A stretch of DNA of 64,000 nt from Prochlorococcus marinus str. MIT 9515 (lineage in GTDB: Bacteria; Cyanobacteriota; Cyanobacteriia; PCC-6307; Cyanobiaceae): contig NC_008817.1 of assembly GCF_000015665.1 (NCBI RefSeq), forward strand, positions 744,001-808,000, in the 5' to 3' direction. The notes below the pieces were generated by a model, which saw nothing but the letters and a program-made list of their open reading frames with translations, was not told where the DNA came from and did no database searches. Position 1 is the stretch's first letter. The number at the start of each line of letters is the position of its first letter. The translations under genes were made by a program, and so were the position numbers. Below, one piece after another: positions 11,152 through 33,659 of the stretch.

Positions 11152-11304
11152 CTAATCTGCTGCTCCACCATTATTTGCAGTTCCAGTAACGTTGCTCATA
11201 CCGTCGGGTCTGCCGTCAGTTCTAAGCTTTCTCTTCTTGAACTTTCTTGCGTATGCACGATTACGGTCTTGCTTTTCTTTTTTTAAATTCCTTCTCTTTG
11301 ACAT
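11152..11304 (-). CDS. Small conserved basic protein (50 aa)
   Basis: A clean 50-codon minus-strand frame begins MSKRRNLKKEKQDRNRAYA and ends with a Gly/Asn/Ala tail. It is extremely basic in its first 35 residues. It sits between the DevA-type ATPase gene and the glycosyltransferase, on the same strand as both. The G/C-richer third positions suggest real selection on codons. Longer open frames on the opposite strand at this place are antisense shadows. The composition suggests nucleic-acid or ribosome binding, but that is inference; the family is not recognised by name. Confidence 0.7.
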   Translation of the reverse strand: MSKRRNLKKEKQDRNRAYARKFKKRKLRTDGRPDGMSNVTGTANNGGAAD

Positions 11305-11322
11305 AAATTTTTTTACTTTCGA

Positions 11323-12036
11323 CTATCTTAGCTCACTAAGTGCATTAAATATTTTACCATCTTCCATATTTAATATCCTATCCGCCATATCTGAAATCCT
11401 TGGGTCATGTGTCACCATTAGGACAGAACAATTCTGTTCTTTTGCCAATTTCTTTAAAAGGGAAACTATTTCTCTTCCTGTAACGCTGTCTAAAGCGGAA
11501 GTTGGTTCATCTGCAAGTAAAAGTTTGGGATTAGCAGATAATGCCCTTGCAATTGCAACTCTTTGTTTCTGACCTCCAGACAAATCACTTGGAAGTTTTT
11601 TATTATGGTCAGCCAGTCCAACTGCGGATAACCACTTCCTCGCAATTTCTCTTCTTTGCAAATATGTTAAATTTCTAAGCAAATCAGCCCCCATTTGAAC
11701 ATTTTGTTCTGCTGTTAAACATCTGAGCAAATTATGTCCCTGAAAAATCATCCCAATATTTCTTCGAAGTATTTGTCTGGTTTTTCTTGAGGCACCATTT
11801 AATTGTTTATTTAAAACCGTCAAATCACCGCTTTGACAGGTTCTAAGGGCACCAATCAAGGTCAAAAGAGTTGTCTTGCCACAACCGGATGGGCCTTTCA
11901 AAAGCACTAATTCACCTCTCTCAATAAAAAAATTAACATTATTAAGAACTTGTTTCTTATTTTCATTTTTTCCGTAAAAATGACTCAAATTATTGATAGA
12001 AACAGTTTTTAAATTTTTATTTAAGCTTGAGTGCAT
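11323..12036 (-). CDS. devA: DevA-type ABC exporter ATP-binding protein
   Basis: This 237-residue ATPase is the energy module of a DevBCA/MacB-like exporter. Walker A is GPSGCGKTT, the signature is LSGGQKQRVAIARAL, and Walker B is LLLADEPTSALD, followed by the switch His in VMVTHDP. It is the third gene of a minus-strand run devB (13222-14136), devC (12050-13222), devA. In Anabaena the homologous system exports heterocyst glycolipids. Prochlorococcus makes no heterocysts, so here the substrate is unknown. Confidence 0.9.
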   Translation of the reverse strand: MHSSLNKNLKTVSINNLSHFYGKNENKKQVLNNVNFFIERGELVLLKGPSGCGKTTLLTLIGALRTCQSGDLTVLNKQLNGASRKTRQILRRNIGMIFQGHNLLRCLTAEQNVQMGADLLRNLTYLQRREIARKWLSAVGLADHNKKLPSDLSGGQKQRVAIARALSANPKLLLADEPTSALDSVTGREIVSLLKKLAKEQNCSVLMVTHDPRISDMADRILNMEDGKIFNALSELR

Positions 12037-27376: not shown

Positions 27377-27460
27377 ATAAAACAAATTATTTTCCTATTT
27401 GTCAGATGTAAACCCACAAACTAAATATTTAATAAATTATTATAAGTAAAAATACTTAAA

Positions 27461-27874
27461 ATGCAAATCACTGAGGCCTTAAAATCTCTTGAAAATTCTT
27501 GGTCAAGAGATATAGTTCTTTTAAAAATAAAAAATGGCGAAAATTCAGAAAAAATAGTTAATGATTTTTTTAATACTAAAAAGAAAGAGATTGAAATCTT
27601 ATCTAATTCTTTAACCCAAAAAGATAGAATCCTCTTAAGTGAAATAGAGAAATTATCATATATTGAATCAAAACTAATAAAAAAGATTAAACATTACAAC
27701 CCTAATAAAAGTTTATTATCAGTTGTTGAAAAAGATCCAACTAGTACTTTACATTACGAAGAAAATAAATCATTTAATTTAGGTTTTTTCATGATGAAAT
27801 GGAGTAATAAATTTGTTTTTATTTCTTTATTAGTAATATCAGCTATAGCCTTAACTAAACAGGCATGGGCATAA
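27461..27874 (+). CDS. Hypothetical C-tail-anchored protein
   Basis: This 137-residue protein is helical and charged for 115 residues, then ends in one transmembrane helix (FVFISLLVISAIALTKQAWA), the layout of a tail-anchored protein. The N-terminal part has LENSWSRDIVLLKIKNGENS. It lies 36 bases upstream of the repair operon on the same strand, but the proteins do not obviously belong together. Confidence 0.55.
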   Translation: MQITEALKSLENSWSRDIVLLKIKNGENSEKIVNDFFNTKKKEIEILSNSLTQKDRILLSEIEKLSYIESKLIKKIKHYNPNKSLLSVVEKDPTSTLHYEENKSFNLGFFMMKWSNKFVFISLLVISAIALTKQAWA

Positions 27875-27910: not shown

Positions 27911-28903
27911 TTGAGAGAAGATAGCTTTCATTTAATCAAATATACTAGCAGTGGTTTGTATTGCGAAGTTGCTGATTTATGGATTGATCCAAAAAAGCCG
28001 GTAAAACAAGCTATCATAACTCATGCTCATATGGATCATTTTACTTTTGGATGCGAAGAGTATATCTCAACTTTAGAAACAGCCATAATTTTAAAGGAGA
28101 GAATAGGAAAGGATATCAATATTAGAACTTATGAATATGAAAAAGAATTTAAGGTTAACGGTATTAAAATTTCTTTTCATCCTTCAGGACATATTCTTGG
28201 CTCAAGCCAAATAAAAATTAATATGGCTGATGAGATTTGGTTGATAACTAGTGATTTTAAACGCCAAAAAGACGATACTTGTAAAAAGTATGAAATAGTA
28301 AAGACTGATTTTTTAATAAGTGAATCAACTTTTGGGTTACCAATATTTAATTGGGATGAACCTCAAAATACCGCATTAGAAATAAAAAAATGGATACATA
28401 CATCTCATGAAACAACATATTTCTTATTTTGTTATTCTCTTGGGAAAGCACAAAGACTATTAAATGAAATTAGTAAATTAAATTTTACAAATAATATTTT
28501 CACACACAGCAGTATAGATAAGATGAACAAATGTTATAAAAATTTTGGAGTTGAAATCATAGAGACAAAGAAATTTGAAAATAATAAAAATATTGGTGAT
28601 CTTAAAGGAAGTTTAATATTACTTCCACCAGCATTGAATAGAAATTCTTTTCTGAAGAGATATAAAGACTTTCAAACTGGATTTGCAAGTGGTTGGATGT
28701 CAATTAGGGCACTTAGAAAAAGGTCTGGATATGATAAAGGTTTTCCAATCTCAGATCATGCTGATTGGAGTGGTATTTTAAAGACAATAGAAGAATCTAA
28801 AGCTAAAAATGTTTTTTTCCATCATGGAGATAGTGAAGTTTTAATTAAATATTTAAAAGAAAAAAAATCTATCAATGTTCTTGAATTTGAATATAAAAAA
28901 TGA
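27911..28903 (+). CDS. Ligase-associated MBL-fold DNA exonuclease
   Basis: This 330-residue metallo-beta-lactamase/beta-CASP nuclease is of the type found next to ATP-dependent ligases. Metal ligands are visible as HAHMDH (His38, His40, Asp42, His43), HPSGHILGSSQ and TSDFKR. The beta-CASP His is in SDHADWSG, and a final HHGD motif closes the site. It is the first gene of a four-gene operon: its stop overlaps the ligase start by four bases. The start is TTG. The predicted role is resection of DNA ends before ligation. Confidence 0.9.
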   Translation: MREDSFHLIKYTSSGLYCEVADLWIDPKKPVKQAIITHAHMDHFTFGCEEYISTLETAIILKERIGKDINIRTYEYEKEFKVNGIKISFHPSGHILGSSQIKINMADEIWLITSDFKRQKDDTCKKYEIVKTDFLISESTFGLPIFNWDEPQNTALEIKKWIHTSHETTYFLFCYSLGKAQRLLNEISKLNFTNNIFTHSSIDKMNKCYKNFGVEIIETKKFENNKNIGDLKGSLILLPPALNRNSFLKRYKDFQTGFASGWMSIRALRKRSGYDKGFPISDHADWSGILKTIEESKAKNVFFHHGDSEVLIKYLKEKKSINVLEFEYKK

Positions 28904-30537
28904 GCCTAAAAAAGTTTTCAGAATTATATTTAGATTTAGATTCTTGTAATAGTACAAATAAAAAGATTGAAATCTTAAATAATTATTTTTCTTCTAATGA
29001 AGATTTAGAAAACGCATGGACAATTTATTTACTAACAGGGAAAAAAAATAAAAGATTTATAAGTGGATCATTACTTAAAACTTTATTTTCGGAAATTTAT
29101 GAATATCCTTTATGGTTAATTGATTCATGTTATTTAAAAGTTGGAGATTCTTCTGAAGTTATATCCTTATTATTGAGGAATAAGATCATTGGAAGAAATT
29201 ATAAATATCAAAATATCTCGCTTAATGAATTATTAAATAAATTTCTTCCTGATTTATATATTCTGAAAGAAGAAGATAAGAAGTTAAGGTTGAAAGAAAT
29301 TTGGGAAAATATTCCAAAAGAAAACCATTTAGTTATTAACAAAATCTTAACTGGTACTTTTAGAGTTGGAGTATCAATAGGCTTAATAACAAAATCTATA
29401 GCAAAGTTAATTAATTTAGAAGAGGCAATCATTTCTCATAGATTAATGGGTGATTTTATTCCCTCTCCTGAAACATATCAATTATTAATAAGTAAAAAAA
29501 TAAATCCTTCAGAATTAAATTACAAACCTTATCCATTTCTACTTGCTAATACTTTTGACAAGAAAATTATAGATAAATCAATTAATGATTTTCAATTTGA
29601 ATGGAAATGGGATGGAATTAGAATTCAATTAATAAAAAGGGATGGTAAAATTTCAATATGGTCAAGAGGCCAGGAATTAGTAAATAAATCTTTTCCTGAA
29701 TTAGTAGAGAAAATAGTATTTATCAAGGATGACTTTGTAGTAGATGGTGAATTATTAGTTTGGAATTCTATCGAAGATCTTCCTATGAATTTCTCACTAC
29801 TTCAAAAAAGACTTAATAGAAAAGAACCTTCGAGAAAAATTCAAAAAAGTTTTCCTATTACATTTATTGCCTATGATCTTTTGGAAATAGATGGAGAAGA
29901 TCAAAGAGAGTTTAATCTAAAAAATAGAAGAATTAATTTAGAAAATAATTTCTATAAATGGTTAAATGAAAGTGAAGAGGACCTCTCAAATATTTTTAAA
30001 ATAAGTAAATTAATATATCCAAAAAATTGGAAAGAAGCAGAGATGTTTAAAAATAATTCTAGAGATAATGGTACAGAGGGATTAGTCATTAAAAATAAAA
30101 ACTCAAACTATTCTCCAGGAAGGAAGAAAGGGCTTTGGTGGAAATATAAAGTTGATCCAATGCAACTTGATGCAGTATTGATCTATGCCAAAGGAGGTAC
30201 TGGAATAAGAGCAGGTTTATATACTGACTATAGTTTTGGTCTGTGGAAAGATGGAGAATTAATAAAATTTGCAAGTGCATATTCTGGTTTAAATAATACT
30301 GAGATTAAAGAACTAGATAAATGGATAAGACAAAATACTATCGAAAGATTTGGACCTGTAAGATCTGTAAAACCTAAAATGGTCTTCGAAATTTCTTTCG
30401 AAAACATTCAAAGATCAAAACGTCATAAATCAGGAATTGCCGTTAGATTTCCTAGAATTACAAAATGGAGAAAAGATAAATTTATACAAGATGCTGACAC
30501 CTTAGAAAATGCTCAAAAACTAATTCTAAGTGAATAA
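28900..30537 (+). CDS. ATP-dependent DNA ligase (repair type)
   Basis: This 545-residue ligase has an N-terminal DNA-binding domain (about 1-200), an adenylation domain with the nucleotidyl Lys236 in EWKWDGIR, and an OB domain. Further motifs are VVDGELLVW (III), IAYDLLEIDG (IIIa), EGLVIKNKNS (IV) and WWKYK (V). It is distinct from the replicative NAD-dependent LigA and belongs to the group that travels with an exonuclease, an Lhr helicase and a phosphoesterase. The last base is shared with the helicase start. Confidence 0.92.
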   Translation: MSLKKFSELYLDLDSCNSTNKKIEILNNYFSSNEDLENAWTIYLLTGKKNKRFISGSLLKTLFSEIYEYPLWLIDSCYLKVGDSSEVISLLLRNKIIGRNYKYQNISLNELLNKFLPDLYILKEEDKKLRLKEIWENIPKENHLVINKILTGTFRVGVSIGLITKSIAKLINLEEAIISHRLMGDFIPSPETYQLLISKKINPSELNYKPYPFLLANTFDKKIIDKSINDFQFEWKWDGIRIQLIKRDGKISIWSRGQELVNKSFPELVEKIVFIKDDFVVDGELLVWNSIEDLPMNFSLLQKRLNRKEPSRKIQKSFPITFIAYDLLEIDGEDQREFNLKNRRINLENNFYKWLNESEEDLSNIFKISKLIYPKNWKEAEMFKNNSRDNGTEGLVIKNKNSNYSPGRKKGLWWKYKVDPMQLDAVLIYAKGGTGIRAGLYTDYSFGLWKDGELIKFASAYSGLNNTEIKELDKWIRQNTIERFGPVRSVKPKMVFEISFENIQRSKRHKSGIAVRFPRITKWRKDKFIQDADTLENAQKLILSE

Positions 30538-33014
30538 TGGAAAGGTTCTCAAATAAATCTTCTATAAATTACATAAGAAAATTTTTTAATAAAAATGGTT
30601 GGGACCCTCTGCCATATCAAATAGAATCGTGGGAAGCATATCTGAATGGAGAAAATGGAATCATTCAGGTTCCAACTGGATGTGGTAAAACTTATGCTGC
30701 TTTGATGGGGCCTCTATTGATGTTACAAGCTTCTCCAGAAAAATCAGGATTAAGTATTTTAGTAATTACTCCTTTAAAGGCATTAAGTAGAGATTTAAAA
30801 AATAATATTTATTTGGCAGCTCAATTTTTCAATAAAGATTTAACAGTTGGAATAAGAAATGGAGATACAAGTGCATACGAAAAGAAAAAGCAAATACTTA
30901 AACCACCAAATATTCTTATAACTACTCCCGAATCTCTTTCTCTTCTATTGTCTAATAAAGAAGCTAATAAAATATTCAACAATTTAATTTCAATTATTAT
31001 TGATGAATGGCATGAGTTAATGGGTAGTAAAAGGGGGAATCAATGCGAATTATCCTTAAGTTGGCTAAGAGGAAATAAAAAAGATTTACAAATTTGGGCA
31101 ATGTCCGCAACTATTGGAAATATTAAAGAAGCAGCAAGAGCAATTGTTGGAATAAAGGGCGAAATGCCAAGAATTATTAGTACTTCTATTAAGAAAGAAA
31201 TTGAAATTTTTAGCGTCTTACCCGAAGAAGAAACAACCTATCCATGGAGTGGACATTTAGGTATCAAGAGCTATTCTTTACTACTCAAAGTATTAGATAA
31301 AAACAAAAGTACCTTACTTTTCACTAATACTAGAAATCAATCTGAAAGATGGTATCAATGCTTAAGATATTGTCTACCTGAAATGCAAGATAGGATTTCT
31401 TTACATCATGGCTCATTGGATAAAGATCAAAGATTGATAGTTGAGGATGGGGTAAAAAACGGATCTATAAAGTGGGTTGTTTGCACAAGCTCATTAGATT
31501 TAGGAGTTGACTTTCAACCTGTTGATCAAATTGTTCAAATTGGAAGTGCTAAAAACTTAGCACGACTGATTCAAAGGGCAGGGAGGAGTGCTCATAGACC
31601 AGGAGGAAAGTCAAAAATAATTTTTATGCCTACTAACTCATTAGAATTACTTGAAATTAGTGCAATGAGGAGAATAATAAAAAGTGGTATATCTGAAAAT
31701 ATTAAGCTCCCTGAATTGTCTTTTGATGTTCTACTTCAGCATCTAGTTAGTTTAGCTTGTGGGCCAGGTTTTAATCCCAATATTGAGAAAGAAAGAATAA
31801 AAGGTTGCTGGAGTTATAGAAATCTTGATGATAAAGAATGGGAGTGGTGCATTGACTTTTTAGAATATGGAGGAAAGTGTTTGAAGGCATATCCGAAATA
31901 TAAAAAAATAGAAAGAGAACAACTAAAAGATGATGAAAATAACTTCAAATATTTTGTAAAAGATAAATCCTTAATAAGAATGCATAAATTCAATATTGGA
32001 ACAATAACTAGCGATAAATTTATTAATGTAAAATATTTAAAAGGAAAATCATTAGGTAATATTGAAGAAAATTTTGCTACTAAATTAAAACAGGGAGATA
32101 CTTTTTACTTTGCTGGTAAAATTCTACAGTTTGTGAAAATTAGAGATATGACTTTATATGTGAAAAAATCTTCAAAAAAAAGTTCTTTGATTCCTTCATG
32201 GGTAGGAGGTCAAATTGCTATTTCTGATCTGTTAAGTGATAATTTAAGAAGTGAAATAGATATTTGTACAACATTAGGAAATGATGGTCGATACTTTAAT
32301 AAAGAATTAAAGTCATTGCTTCCAATTTTAAAAAAACAGAATAAGCTTTCTGATATTCCCAAAAGGAATCAACTGCTTATTGAAATCTACAAGACTAAAG
32401 AATTAACAAGCCTTTTTGTGTTTACACTTGATGGTAAATTTGTTAATGAAGGGATAGCATTTTTGTGGGCTTTAAGAATTGCTAAAAAAAAGGAATCTAC
32501 ATTTAGTATTTCTTCAAATGATTTTGGATTTAGCTTAACTACTTCAGCAGATTATGACTTTTCAATTATAGATAAAGAATTTTCATATTTAATAGAAAAT
32601 AAAAACTTGGAAAAAGATTTAGAGAATGCAATAAATTTTTCAGAATTAACAAAGAGAAGATTTAAAAATATTGCCCAAATCAGCGGATTAGTTAATCAAA
32701 ATAATCCAACTAAACCAAAAAGTTCATCTCAACTCCAAATAAGTTCAAGTCTTCTTTATGATGTTTTTACTAGATATGAAGAAGATCACTTGTTAATTAA
32801 ACAATCACATCAAGAAGTAAAAGAGTACCAATTAGAAAATAGAAGAATTAAAAATGCTTTAGAAAGAATTTCTAATTTAAAAATAATATTAAACGAGACT
32901 AAAACTCCTAGTCCATTTGCCTTCCCTTTACTAGTTGAAAGATTAAAAAATACATTAAGCAATGAATCAATAGAAAAGAGAGTTGAAAAACTCATACAAA
33001 AATATAAGAGTTAA
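30537..33014 (+). CDS. Ligase-associated Lhr-like DEXH helicase
   Basis: This 825-residue SF2 helicase has Walker A VPTGCGKT (Lys51), motif II IDEWHE (Asp156), MSATIGN (motif III) and QRAGRSAHRPGG (motif VI). Motif II has Trp in place of the more common Ala or Glu, as seen in ligase-associated Lhr proteins. A winged-helix/Lhr-core C-terminal region follows, with WVGGQIAISDLL and FAFPLLVERLKN. It is translationally coupled to the ligase, and pdeM follows immediately. Confidence 0.92.
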   Translation: MERFSNKSSINYIRKFFNKNGWDPLPYQIESWEAYLNGENGIIQVPTGCGKTYAALMGPLLMLQASPEKSGLSILVITPLKALSRDLKNNIYLAAQFFNKDLTVGIRNGDTSAYEKKKQILKPPNILITTPESLSLLLSNKEANKIFNNLISIIIDEWHELMGSKRGNQCELSLSWLRGNKKDLQIWAMSATIGNIKEAARAIVGIKGEMPRIISTSIKKEIEIFSVLPEEETTYPWSGHLGIKSYSLLLKVLDKNKSTLLFTNTRNQSERWYQCLRYCLPEMQDRISLHHGSLDKDQRLIVEDGVKNGSIKWVVCTSSLDLGVDFQPVDQIVQIGSAKNLARLIQRAGRSAHRPGGKSKIIFMPTNSLELLEISAMRRIIKSGISENIKLPELSFDVLLQHLVSLACGPGFNPNIEKERIKGCWSYRNLDDKEWEWCIDFLEYGGKCLKAYPKYKKIEREQLKDDENNFKYFVKDKSLIRMHKFNIGTITSDKFINVKYLKGKSLGNIEENFATKLKQGDTFYFAGKILQFVKIRDMTLYVKKSSKKSSLIPSWVGGQIAISDLLSDNLRSEIDICTTLGNDGRYFNKELKSLLPILKKQNKLSDIPKRNQLLIEIYKTKELTSLFVFTLDGKFVNEGIAFLWALRIAKKKESTFSISSNDFGFSLTTSADYDFSIIDKEFSYLIENKNLEKDLENAINFSELTKRRFKNIAQISGLVNQNNPTKPKSSSQLQISSSLLYDVFTRYEEDHLLIKQSHQEVKEYQLENRRIKNALERISNLKIILNETKTPSPFAFPLLVERLKNTLSNESIEKRVEKLIQKYKS

Positions 33015-33659
33015 ATGAAAAAAAAGTATTTTTCAATAGGTTGGGGGGATTCAACAATACAAATGCTCCCTTCAAAAGCATTATTTCTGCCTAAAACAAA
33101 AGAACTATTAATTTGTGATGTTCATCTAGGGAAAGCAGACTATTTTCAGAAGAATGGTATCCCTCTTACGAATAATTCAGATGAGCAAAACTTATTAAGA
33201 ATAAAAAATGTAGTAATAAACAACAATCCTAATAAATTAATTATTTTAGGAGATTTGTTTCATAGTAAATATTCGATTAGCGAGTTATTAAAAAGTAAAG
33301 TAGAACATCTTTCAGAATCGTTAAATATAAAAATTGAGTTAATTGTTGGAAATCATGATATCGGCTGTAAAGTCAAAAATATAAAATTTATCAATTATAA
33401 AAGGTCTAGTAATTTTATATTTAGTCATGAGCCATTAGGTAAATTTGAAAATAATATTTTAAATATTTGTGGACATTATCATCCTAAAATCTTTTTAAAA
33501 AATTCAAAAGATAAATTATCCTTTAAATGTTTTGCTATGGATAAAAAAAATAATACACTATACCTTCCAGCTTTTGGAGATCTAACTGGAGGATATCCAT
33601 GTAAAAGTTCATTCAAAAAATGGGTTATAGTTTCTGATACAGAAATTATTGAAATATAA
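33015..33659 (+). CDS. pdeM: Ligase-associated metallophosphoesterase
   Basis: This 214-residue calcineurin-like phosphoesterase has LICDVHLGK (Asp35, His37), ILGDLFHSK (Asp80), VGNHD and GHYHP, the complete dimetal signature. It belongs to the small DNA phosphoesterase group encoded beside ATP-dependent ligases, presumably trimming 3' ends. The ATG immediately follows the helicase stop codon. It completes the exonuclease-ligase-helicase-phosphoesterase set. Confidence 0.88.
   Translation: MKKKYFSIGWGDSTIQMLPSKALFLPKTKELLICDVHLGKADYFQKNGIPLTNNSDEQNLLRIKNVVINNNPNKLIILGDLFHSKYSISELLKSKVEHLSESLNIKIELIVGNHDIGCKVKNIKFINYKRSSNFIFSHEPLGKFENNILNICGHYHPKIFLKNSKDKLSFKCFAMDKKNNTLYLPAFGDLTGGYPCKSSFKKWVIVSDTEIIEI

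Follow-up and report, generated by a model that had tools for sequence, protein, structure and literature searches.

Results

The operon and its four enzymes

The window analysed here, a stretch of 64,000 nucleotides from Prochlorococcus marinus str. MIT 9515 (NC_008817.1, positions 744,001 to 808,000; a complete genome of one contig with 1,704,176 bases, handle G000), carries an operon for an exonuclease, an ATP-dependent DNA ligase, a helicase and a phosphoesterase-family endonuclease (exo, lig, hel and pde), preceded by a small gene, orf137, and a palindrome. As a preliminary description of this DNA had stated, the four enzyme genes lie in this order on one strand, with overlaps of 4 bases (exo/lig) and 1 base (lig/hel) and a gap of 0 bases (hel/pde). 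The gene at 27911..28903 (+ strand), which starts with TTG, encodes a ligase-associated exonuclease of the metallo-beta-lactamase (MBL) fold (TIGR04122, Xnuc_lig_assoc; 379 bits, cut-off 325). It is followed by a LigB-type ATP-dependent DNA ligase at 28900..30537 (+), identified by TIGR04120 (DNA_lig_bact; 509 bits, cut-off 400), PRK09247 (677 bits) and alignment, and by an 825-aa Lhr-core DEXH helicase at 30537..33014 (+; TIGR04121, DEXH_lig_assoc; 1028 bits, cut-off 850). The last gene, at 33015..33659 (+), encodes a member of the PdeM/MPE endonuclease family (TIGR04123, PdeM; 173 bits, cut-off 150), whose sole matches among solved structures were two chains of the nuclease MPE (6nvp, E 1.7e-21). 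All four proteins (4/4) exceeded the curated cut-offs of the NCBIfam equivalog models for the ligase-associated DNA damage response cluster (TIGR04120-04123). The Pfam domains of the helicase (DEAD, Helicase_C, WH_Lhr and DEAD_assoc) make up the Lhr-core set of RecA1, RecA2, winged helix and domain 4, the long C-terminal part being absent; this architecture is laid out in an excerpt of PMC8301817.

The catalytic motifs, previously described as intact, are kept in nearly all relatives. We found in every relative, window included, the ligase pattern K[WY]DG[IV]R (101/101), the helicase patterns PTG[CST]GKT, DE[WVL]H, SAT and QR[AI]GR (94/94), the exonuclease pattern HAH.DH (101/101) and the PdeM patterns D.H.GK, GD..H, GNHD and GH.HP (92/92). 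Exceptions were few: HPSGH (98/101) and SDHADW (100/101) in the exonuclease, YD..E (100/101), KYKVD (99/101) and EGL.IK (100/101) in the ligase, and H.P (89/92) in PdeM. Three exonuclease patterns proved to be window-specific and uninformative, namely SD[FY] (2/101), T[GS]D[FY] (25/101) and H.HMDH (20/101).

The ratios of nonsynonymous to synonymous substitution rates (dN/dS) between the window and genome G015 were ~0.16 for the exonuclease, ~0.16 for the ligase, ~0.13 for the helicase and ~0.15 for PdeM, and the four enzymes are under purifying selection. The exonuclease start codon was TTG in 94/94 loci, window included, which perhaps keeps translation low. The exo/lig junction measured +2 in 71, -4 in 20 and +55 in 2 of 99 loci; the lig/hel junction measured -4 in 66 and -1 in 20 of 94; and the hel/pde junction was 0 in 84 of 92. 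The tight junctions are real in the window but variable among relatives. In one locus (L027), the C-terminus of the exonuclease lies in a different frame.

orf137 and block loss of the operon

Upstream of the exonuclease, at 27461..27874 (+), lies orf137 (137 aa), which we propose as the first gene of the operon on the basis of its position and its loss together with the enzymes. It was found in all 91 loci where IF2N and exo were both visible, among 106 fetched loci that are not independent, some genomes being counted twice as handles and as named contigs; its spacing to exo was 28-38 bases in 94/94 loci. Two bases 5' of its ATG stands the palindrome TAAGTAAAAATACTTA (27443..27458, +), a candidate operator or promoter element that, counting the window, recurs without mismatch in 77 of 86 distinct upstream sequences. 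A genome-wide regulon of this palindrome was unsupported: there was no genome-wide enrichment, matches with at most one mismatch being fewer than those of the reversed-pattern control in 6/6 genomes (23 versus 32 in the window's genome), and the few exact sites inspected are intergenic or coincide with the ends of other genes. The orf137 protein of the window matched no family in family-library searches; phrog_20220 was rejected as its family, being matched by 2 of 13 members (best E 0.003) and not by the window protein. Identity to the 12 relatives compared was 40-68%, and the predicted structure, of low confidence (mean pLDDT, predicted local distance difference test, 66.8), shows helices in the N-terminal part and, at the C-terminus, a hydrophobic helix that is conserved. 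With a dN/dS of 0.33 (window vs G015) the gene is the fastest evolving, the neighbouring IF2N and DUF2130 genes giving 0.23 and 0.06.

The distribution of the operon was followed in 121 genomes of the window's genus, called "high-light" here, as the small-genome genera g2 to g7 are called "low-light", both labels being our own inference from genome size and known genome lengths. The exonuclease was detected in 86 genomes (E<=1e-20), the ligase in 82 (over the cut-off), the helicase in 85 (E<=1e-60) and PdeM in 82 (E<=1e-10); with the ligase taken at E<=4.2e-45 (86 rows), 77 genomes had all four genes, 30 had none and 14 had a partial set. For the 41 genomes at least 90% complete the numbers were 31, 7 and 3. 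The remaining 23 of the 30 operon-less genomes are less complete, and absence there means little. The 14 partial genomes are drafts of at least 30 contigs; G028, G072 and G054, the three that reach 90% completeness, break at contig ends. The four-gene arrangement is not due to chance. The best 80 of 225 relatives in named GTDB contigs were Prochlorococcus or Synechococcaceae records.

The order orf61-orf68-orf121-DUF2130-IF2N-orf137-exo-lig-hel-pde-orf99-orf49-pstB-pstA was common to 20 fetched regions, of which 18 were complete from IF2N to pstB and 2 were ended by the contig end. Empty sites were seen in four of the seven well-covered operon-less genomes (G106, G041, G103 and G104): IF2N adjoins orf99, and orf137, checked at this site only, is gone in 4/4. 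The empty state in G041 is a deletion, since a piece of the PdeM C-terminus is retained there. The other three genomes (G002, G010 and G022) had no close pstB match and their site was not seen. On a flanking-gene tree whose root we chose to set at G088 and G227, 3 changes are required to explain the four empty sites, 2 of them forced by the starred branches. These data indicate that the operon and orf137 were lost as one block in two to three separate events. The mostly all-or-none presence and the block loss bear out the earlier view of a joint repair system, whereas the term "small-gene accessory region" does not hold in that form: the small genes around the operon keep their order in the 20 fetched regions and remain after operon loss, and it is the operon itself that is dispensable. 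In G103 (L043 5638-6080), only three fragments of the neighbouring DUF2130 gene are left, with the rest of the block standing.

Given its high dN/dS and lack of a known family, orf137 might instead be an unrelated gene that happens to lie between the deletion end points. Against this stand its presence and near-constant spacing in every locus examined, the conserved palindrome at its start and its loss together with the operon in each of the two to three events, and we regard a chance bystander as rather unlikely. orf137 probably heads the operon.

Relation to end joining and LexA

The operon had been suggested to be a light- or ultraviolet (UV)-linked double-strand end-joining system. It does contain a ligase, nucleases and a helicase, and among the listed small-genome genera only the window's genus, read as high-light, has it. 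A search of the complete genome that contains the window gave no Ku (PF02735; 0/1), with the positive control matched in B. subtilis, and the operon ligase scored 101 bits against a cut-off of 373 for TIGR02776, far below the models for LigD and non-homologous end joining. Moreover, the operon also occurs in 15 other genera of the family and has been lost in some genomes of the window's own genus. Using the cyanobacterial LexA-box consensus, which an excerpt of PMC3091678 gives along with the MIT9515 recA box, we found no match to RGTACNNNDGTWCB at up to two mismatches between 26449 and 30070, and on this ground we rejected LexA control of the operon. The palindrome TAAGTAAAAATACTTA is not a LexA box. 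Taken together, these results leave the end-joining proposal very improbable. An excerpt of PMC2921402 mentions "several DNA ligases" in MED4 and, within that excerpt, not this operon; PMC3744912 has no mention of "ligase" or "exonuclease".

A second ATP-dependent ligase in the LigA slot

The NAD-dependent ligase LigA is usually considered the essential bacterial ligase. Its model (TIGR00575, E<=1e-100) matched 21 of the 30 genomes tried: 12 of 13 Synechococcus-like genomes, 6/6 low-light-like genomes, 2/2 other cyanobacteria and G088 (1/1), a member of the window's genus that is 65% complete and has the operon. It was not found at this threshold in any of the eight high-light genomes (0/8; one of them 85% complete), a search that did not extend to weaker or fragmentary remnants. 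According to an excerpt of PMC11357015, a family of viral-type NAD ligases is confined to certain low-light strains, which fits this picture; no published statement of LigA loss in high-light Prochlorococcus was found in the excerpts reached by a limited literature search.

LigA adjoins orf139 in 19/19 family loci. Outside the window, the slot of the same genome (sprT-orf139-X-DedA-valS) in which low-light and Synechococcus genomes keep LigA is occupied by a 443-aa phage-type ATP ligase, Pmar-Lig/LigW (G000:C1:1658128-1659459; L275 3129-4460), which matches Pmar-Lig (PDB 6rau; PMC6698739) with E 2.7e-237 and scores 38 bits against TIGR04120, placing it in another family than the operon ligase; in an excerpt of PMC12133292, Lig W of P. 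marinus is given as unclassified. All high-light genomes inspected (8/8: G000, G108, G038, G049, G036, G044 and, without the operon, G106 and G022) have the 443-aa ligase in this slot, three of the eight having also been in the LigA profile search; G088, G122 and G201 have LigA there. G103 (94% complete) gave neither an operon-ligase nor a second-ligase match, reflecting an assembly gap or a further change.

Since LigA was not found in 8/8 high-light genomes, another ligase must serve replication, and the operon ligase could have taken that place. The operon is absent from 7 of the 41 genomes at least 90% complete, and the operon-less G106 and G022 carry the 443-aa ligase exactly in the LigA slot, so we give next to no credence to a replicative role of the operon ligase. 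The 443-aa enzyme presumably serves replication as the indispensable ligase of the cell.

Relatives of the 443-aa ligase are encoded on 434 stretches of IMG/VR viral contigs, the best 80 of the 434 at 67-76% identity (L289-L368). A tree built from 8 host and 35 viral ligases put the hosts on one side of a branch (100/100); the tree is unrooted and does not give the direction of transfer. One neighbour gene cluster lies beside the viral ligase relatives in 60 of 80 loci; two of its proteins were scanned and are phrog_11903, and the cluster is partially matched by 25 isolated phages, including one that infects Synechococcus. Identity of the host ligase to isolated phages was at most 37.9% among the 15 of 1081 records listed. 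A phage origin of the operon ligase was rejected: of the 110 viral-contig sequences that matched the pattern, none proved to be related, and among the 15 of 37 matches listed from isolated phages coverage was at most 57% and identity 21-29%.

Wider distribution and history

Among the listed small-genome (Prochlorococcus-like) genera, the operon occurs only in the window's genus; none of the 8 genomes listed for g2 to g7 gave an exonuclease match (51 further match-less genomes being unlisted). The helicase was present in 49 of 386 genomes of the phylum, 45 of the 49 belonging to this family. An excerpt of PMC3940434 counts an ATP-dependent DNA ligase known from Synechococcus WH8102 among the losses on its Branch 1, in early Prochlorococcus reduction. 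Two single genomes stood out: in the Synechococcus-like G286 the exonuclease and ligase are more than 300 kb apart, and G233 (one contig, 100% complete), with only two weak exonuclease matches (best E 1.5e-33) and no operon ligase found, looks like an operon caught in decay.

In the FastTree trees of exo, lig and hel, the high-light copies lay outside the Synechococcus-like clade. A more careful helicase tree did likewise, with support of 100/100 for the high-light clade, and the approximately unbiased (AU) test rejected a grouping of high-light with g20 and g31 (log-likelihood 39 lower, p 0.0019). Such placements suggest that the operon was re-acquired on the high-light stem, a suggestion weakened by the long branches, the skewed composition and the PdeM tree. 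Re-acquisition would be unnecessary if the operon had been retained vertically from a Synechococcus-like ancestor, evolved fast and was lost in the low-light lineages. This alternative draws on the best helicase tree, where high-light and all Synechococcus-like copies share one side of a weakly supported branch (63/23), on an AU test for the ligase that was merely borderline (p 0.049), on the FastTree PdeM tree of few sequences, where the high-light copies fall inside the Synechococcus-like set, and on the same long branches and skewed composition. It is opposed by the helicase AU test and the three FastTree trees, by the LigA of G088, which groups with low-light as expected (100/99) in spite of a still longer branch, and by the flanking-gene queries, none of which was found in the Synechococcus regions. 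Vertical retention is a serious contender that we hold to be somewhat less probable than its negation, and re-acquisition remains the suggested history.

Discussion

The reading that we favour, and consider probable, is that the operon is the high-light Prochlorococcus form of the known LigB/Lhr/PdeM/MBL-exonuclease repair cluster, expressed as one orf137-led transcript and providing a dispensable repair or back-up ligase rather than end joining. The operon can be lost and therefore seems to have a repair or back-up role, and the 443-aa enzyme is then probably the indispensable ligase; judged by sequence matches, the operon ligase would be the only other ligase seen beside it where LigA was not found. 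Probably, a single transcript begins close to the palindrome and spans orf137 and the four enzyme genes. To judge from the enzyme families, PdeM would nick DNA that is single-stranded or distorted at a lesion, after which the Lhr-core helicase, moving 3' to 5', would peel off the damaged strand; the MBL-fold exonuclease would trim the ends and LigB would seal once the gap had been filled. The orf137 protein may anchor the enzyme set at the membrane or regulate it there.

Several points weigh against this reading. The order of enzyme action is drawn from the families, and the membership of orf137 from position and co-loss, when a block deletion could remove it merely as lying between the same neighbours. 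An excerpt of PMC6698739 credits some strains with three ATP-dependent ligases, and our search for operon ligases used TIGR04120, which an unlike ligase would have escaped. Across 271 family genomes (at least 90% complete; one with >5% contamination) the exonuclease and the ligase each occurred in 200 genomes, spread over 16 of 34 genera, and the two sets are not identical. Twenty regions of 9-12 kb from Synechococcus-like genera had the ligase in 15, the helicase in 12 and PdeM in 3 (tblastn may miss PdeM), and among seven proteobacterial plasmid regions all four genes stood together in three (Comamonas, Ideonella and Paracoccus) and only two or three genes in four. Scattering of the genes, which had been named as an argument against a joint system, is seen in part, in the looser Synechococcus-like genomes.

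The most interesting lead is the ligase swap. There is, in our estimate, an even chance that high-light Prochlorococcus has no NAD-dependent LigA, that a ligase like those of uncultured marine phages replaced it in place, flanked by the same genes, and now joins Okazaki fragments, and that the LigB operon with orf137, aboard before the swap, may have made it survivable and now serves as a back-up. That the operon was aboard before the swap would follow from G088, taken as a deep branch, which has both the operon and LigA. If true, high-light Prochlorococcus, which are among the most abundant cells on Earth, would have had LigA, a core replication enzyme, displaced at its own locus by a phage-type ATP ligase, a rare kind of event that would make the function of the operon directly testable. 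Prochlorococcus offers natural knock-outs for this purpose, related genomes with and without the block deletion in which only one other ligase was found.

As the preliminary description had noted, the four genes are known as a group: the LigB/Lhr/PdeM/MBL-exonuclease module is already known, as is LigB in Prochlorococcus, and what is new is the high-light form with orf137 in a setting without detected LigA. The remark that the set is not well described in Prochlorococcus is fair, except that P. marinus is named as a LigB carrier in an excerpt of PMC10140301, which also states that the biological role of the LigB cluster is not currently known.

The nearest described counterpart is reportedly the LigB, Lhr-core, MPE (PdeM) and MBL-exonuclease cluster of Pseudomonas putida treated by Ejaz and Shuman in 2018 and 2019. 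It has the same four families as the window operon, which, unlike it, is apparently headed by orf137 and a palindrome and sits in a host without detected LigA. The plasmid clusters of Comamonas, Ideonella and Paracoccus share the gene order of the window, and the ligase and helicase are 36-38% identical to those of Comamonas and Ideonella; in Comamonas antarctica (L247) the cluster overlaps by 4, 1 and 4 bases and a BLUF-domain gene (11179-11577) adjoins it. In the LigB clusters of the Synechococcus-like Cyanobiaceae the exonuclease, ligase and helicase are 36-53% identical to those of the window, but these clusters are looser, with PdeM nearby in 3/20 regions, no orf137 match and other neighbours. 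Ku/LigD end joining likewise sets an ATP-dependent ligase in a repair context, whereas the window has no Ku and its ligase falls far below the LigD models. Finally, Pmar-Lig/LigW is a second ATP ligase of the same cell which, unlike the operon ligase, belongs to another family, occupies the LigA slot and is close in sequence to the ligases of marine viral contigs.

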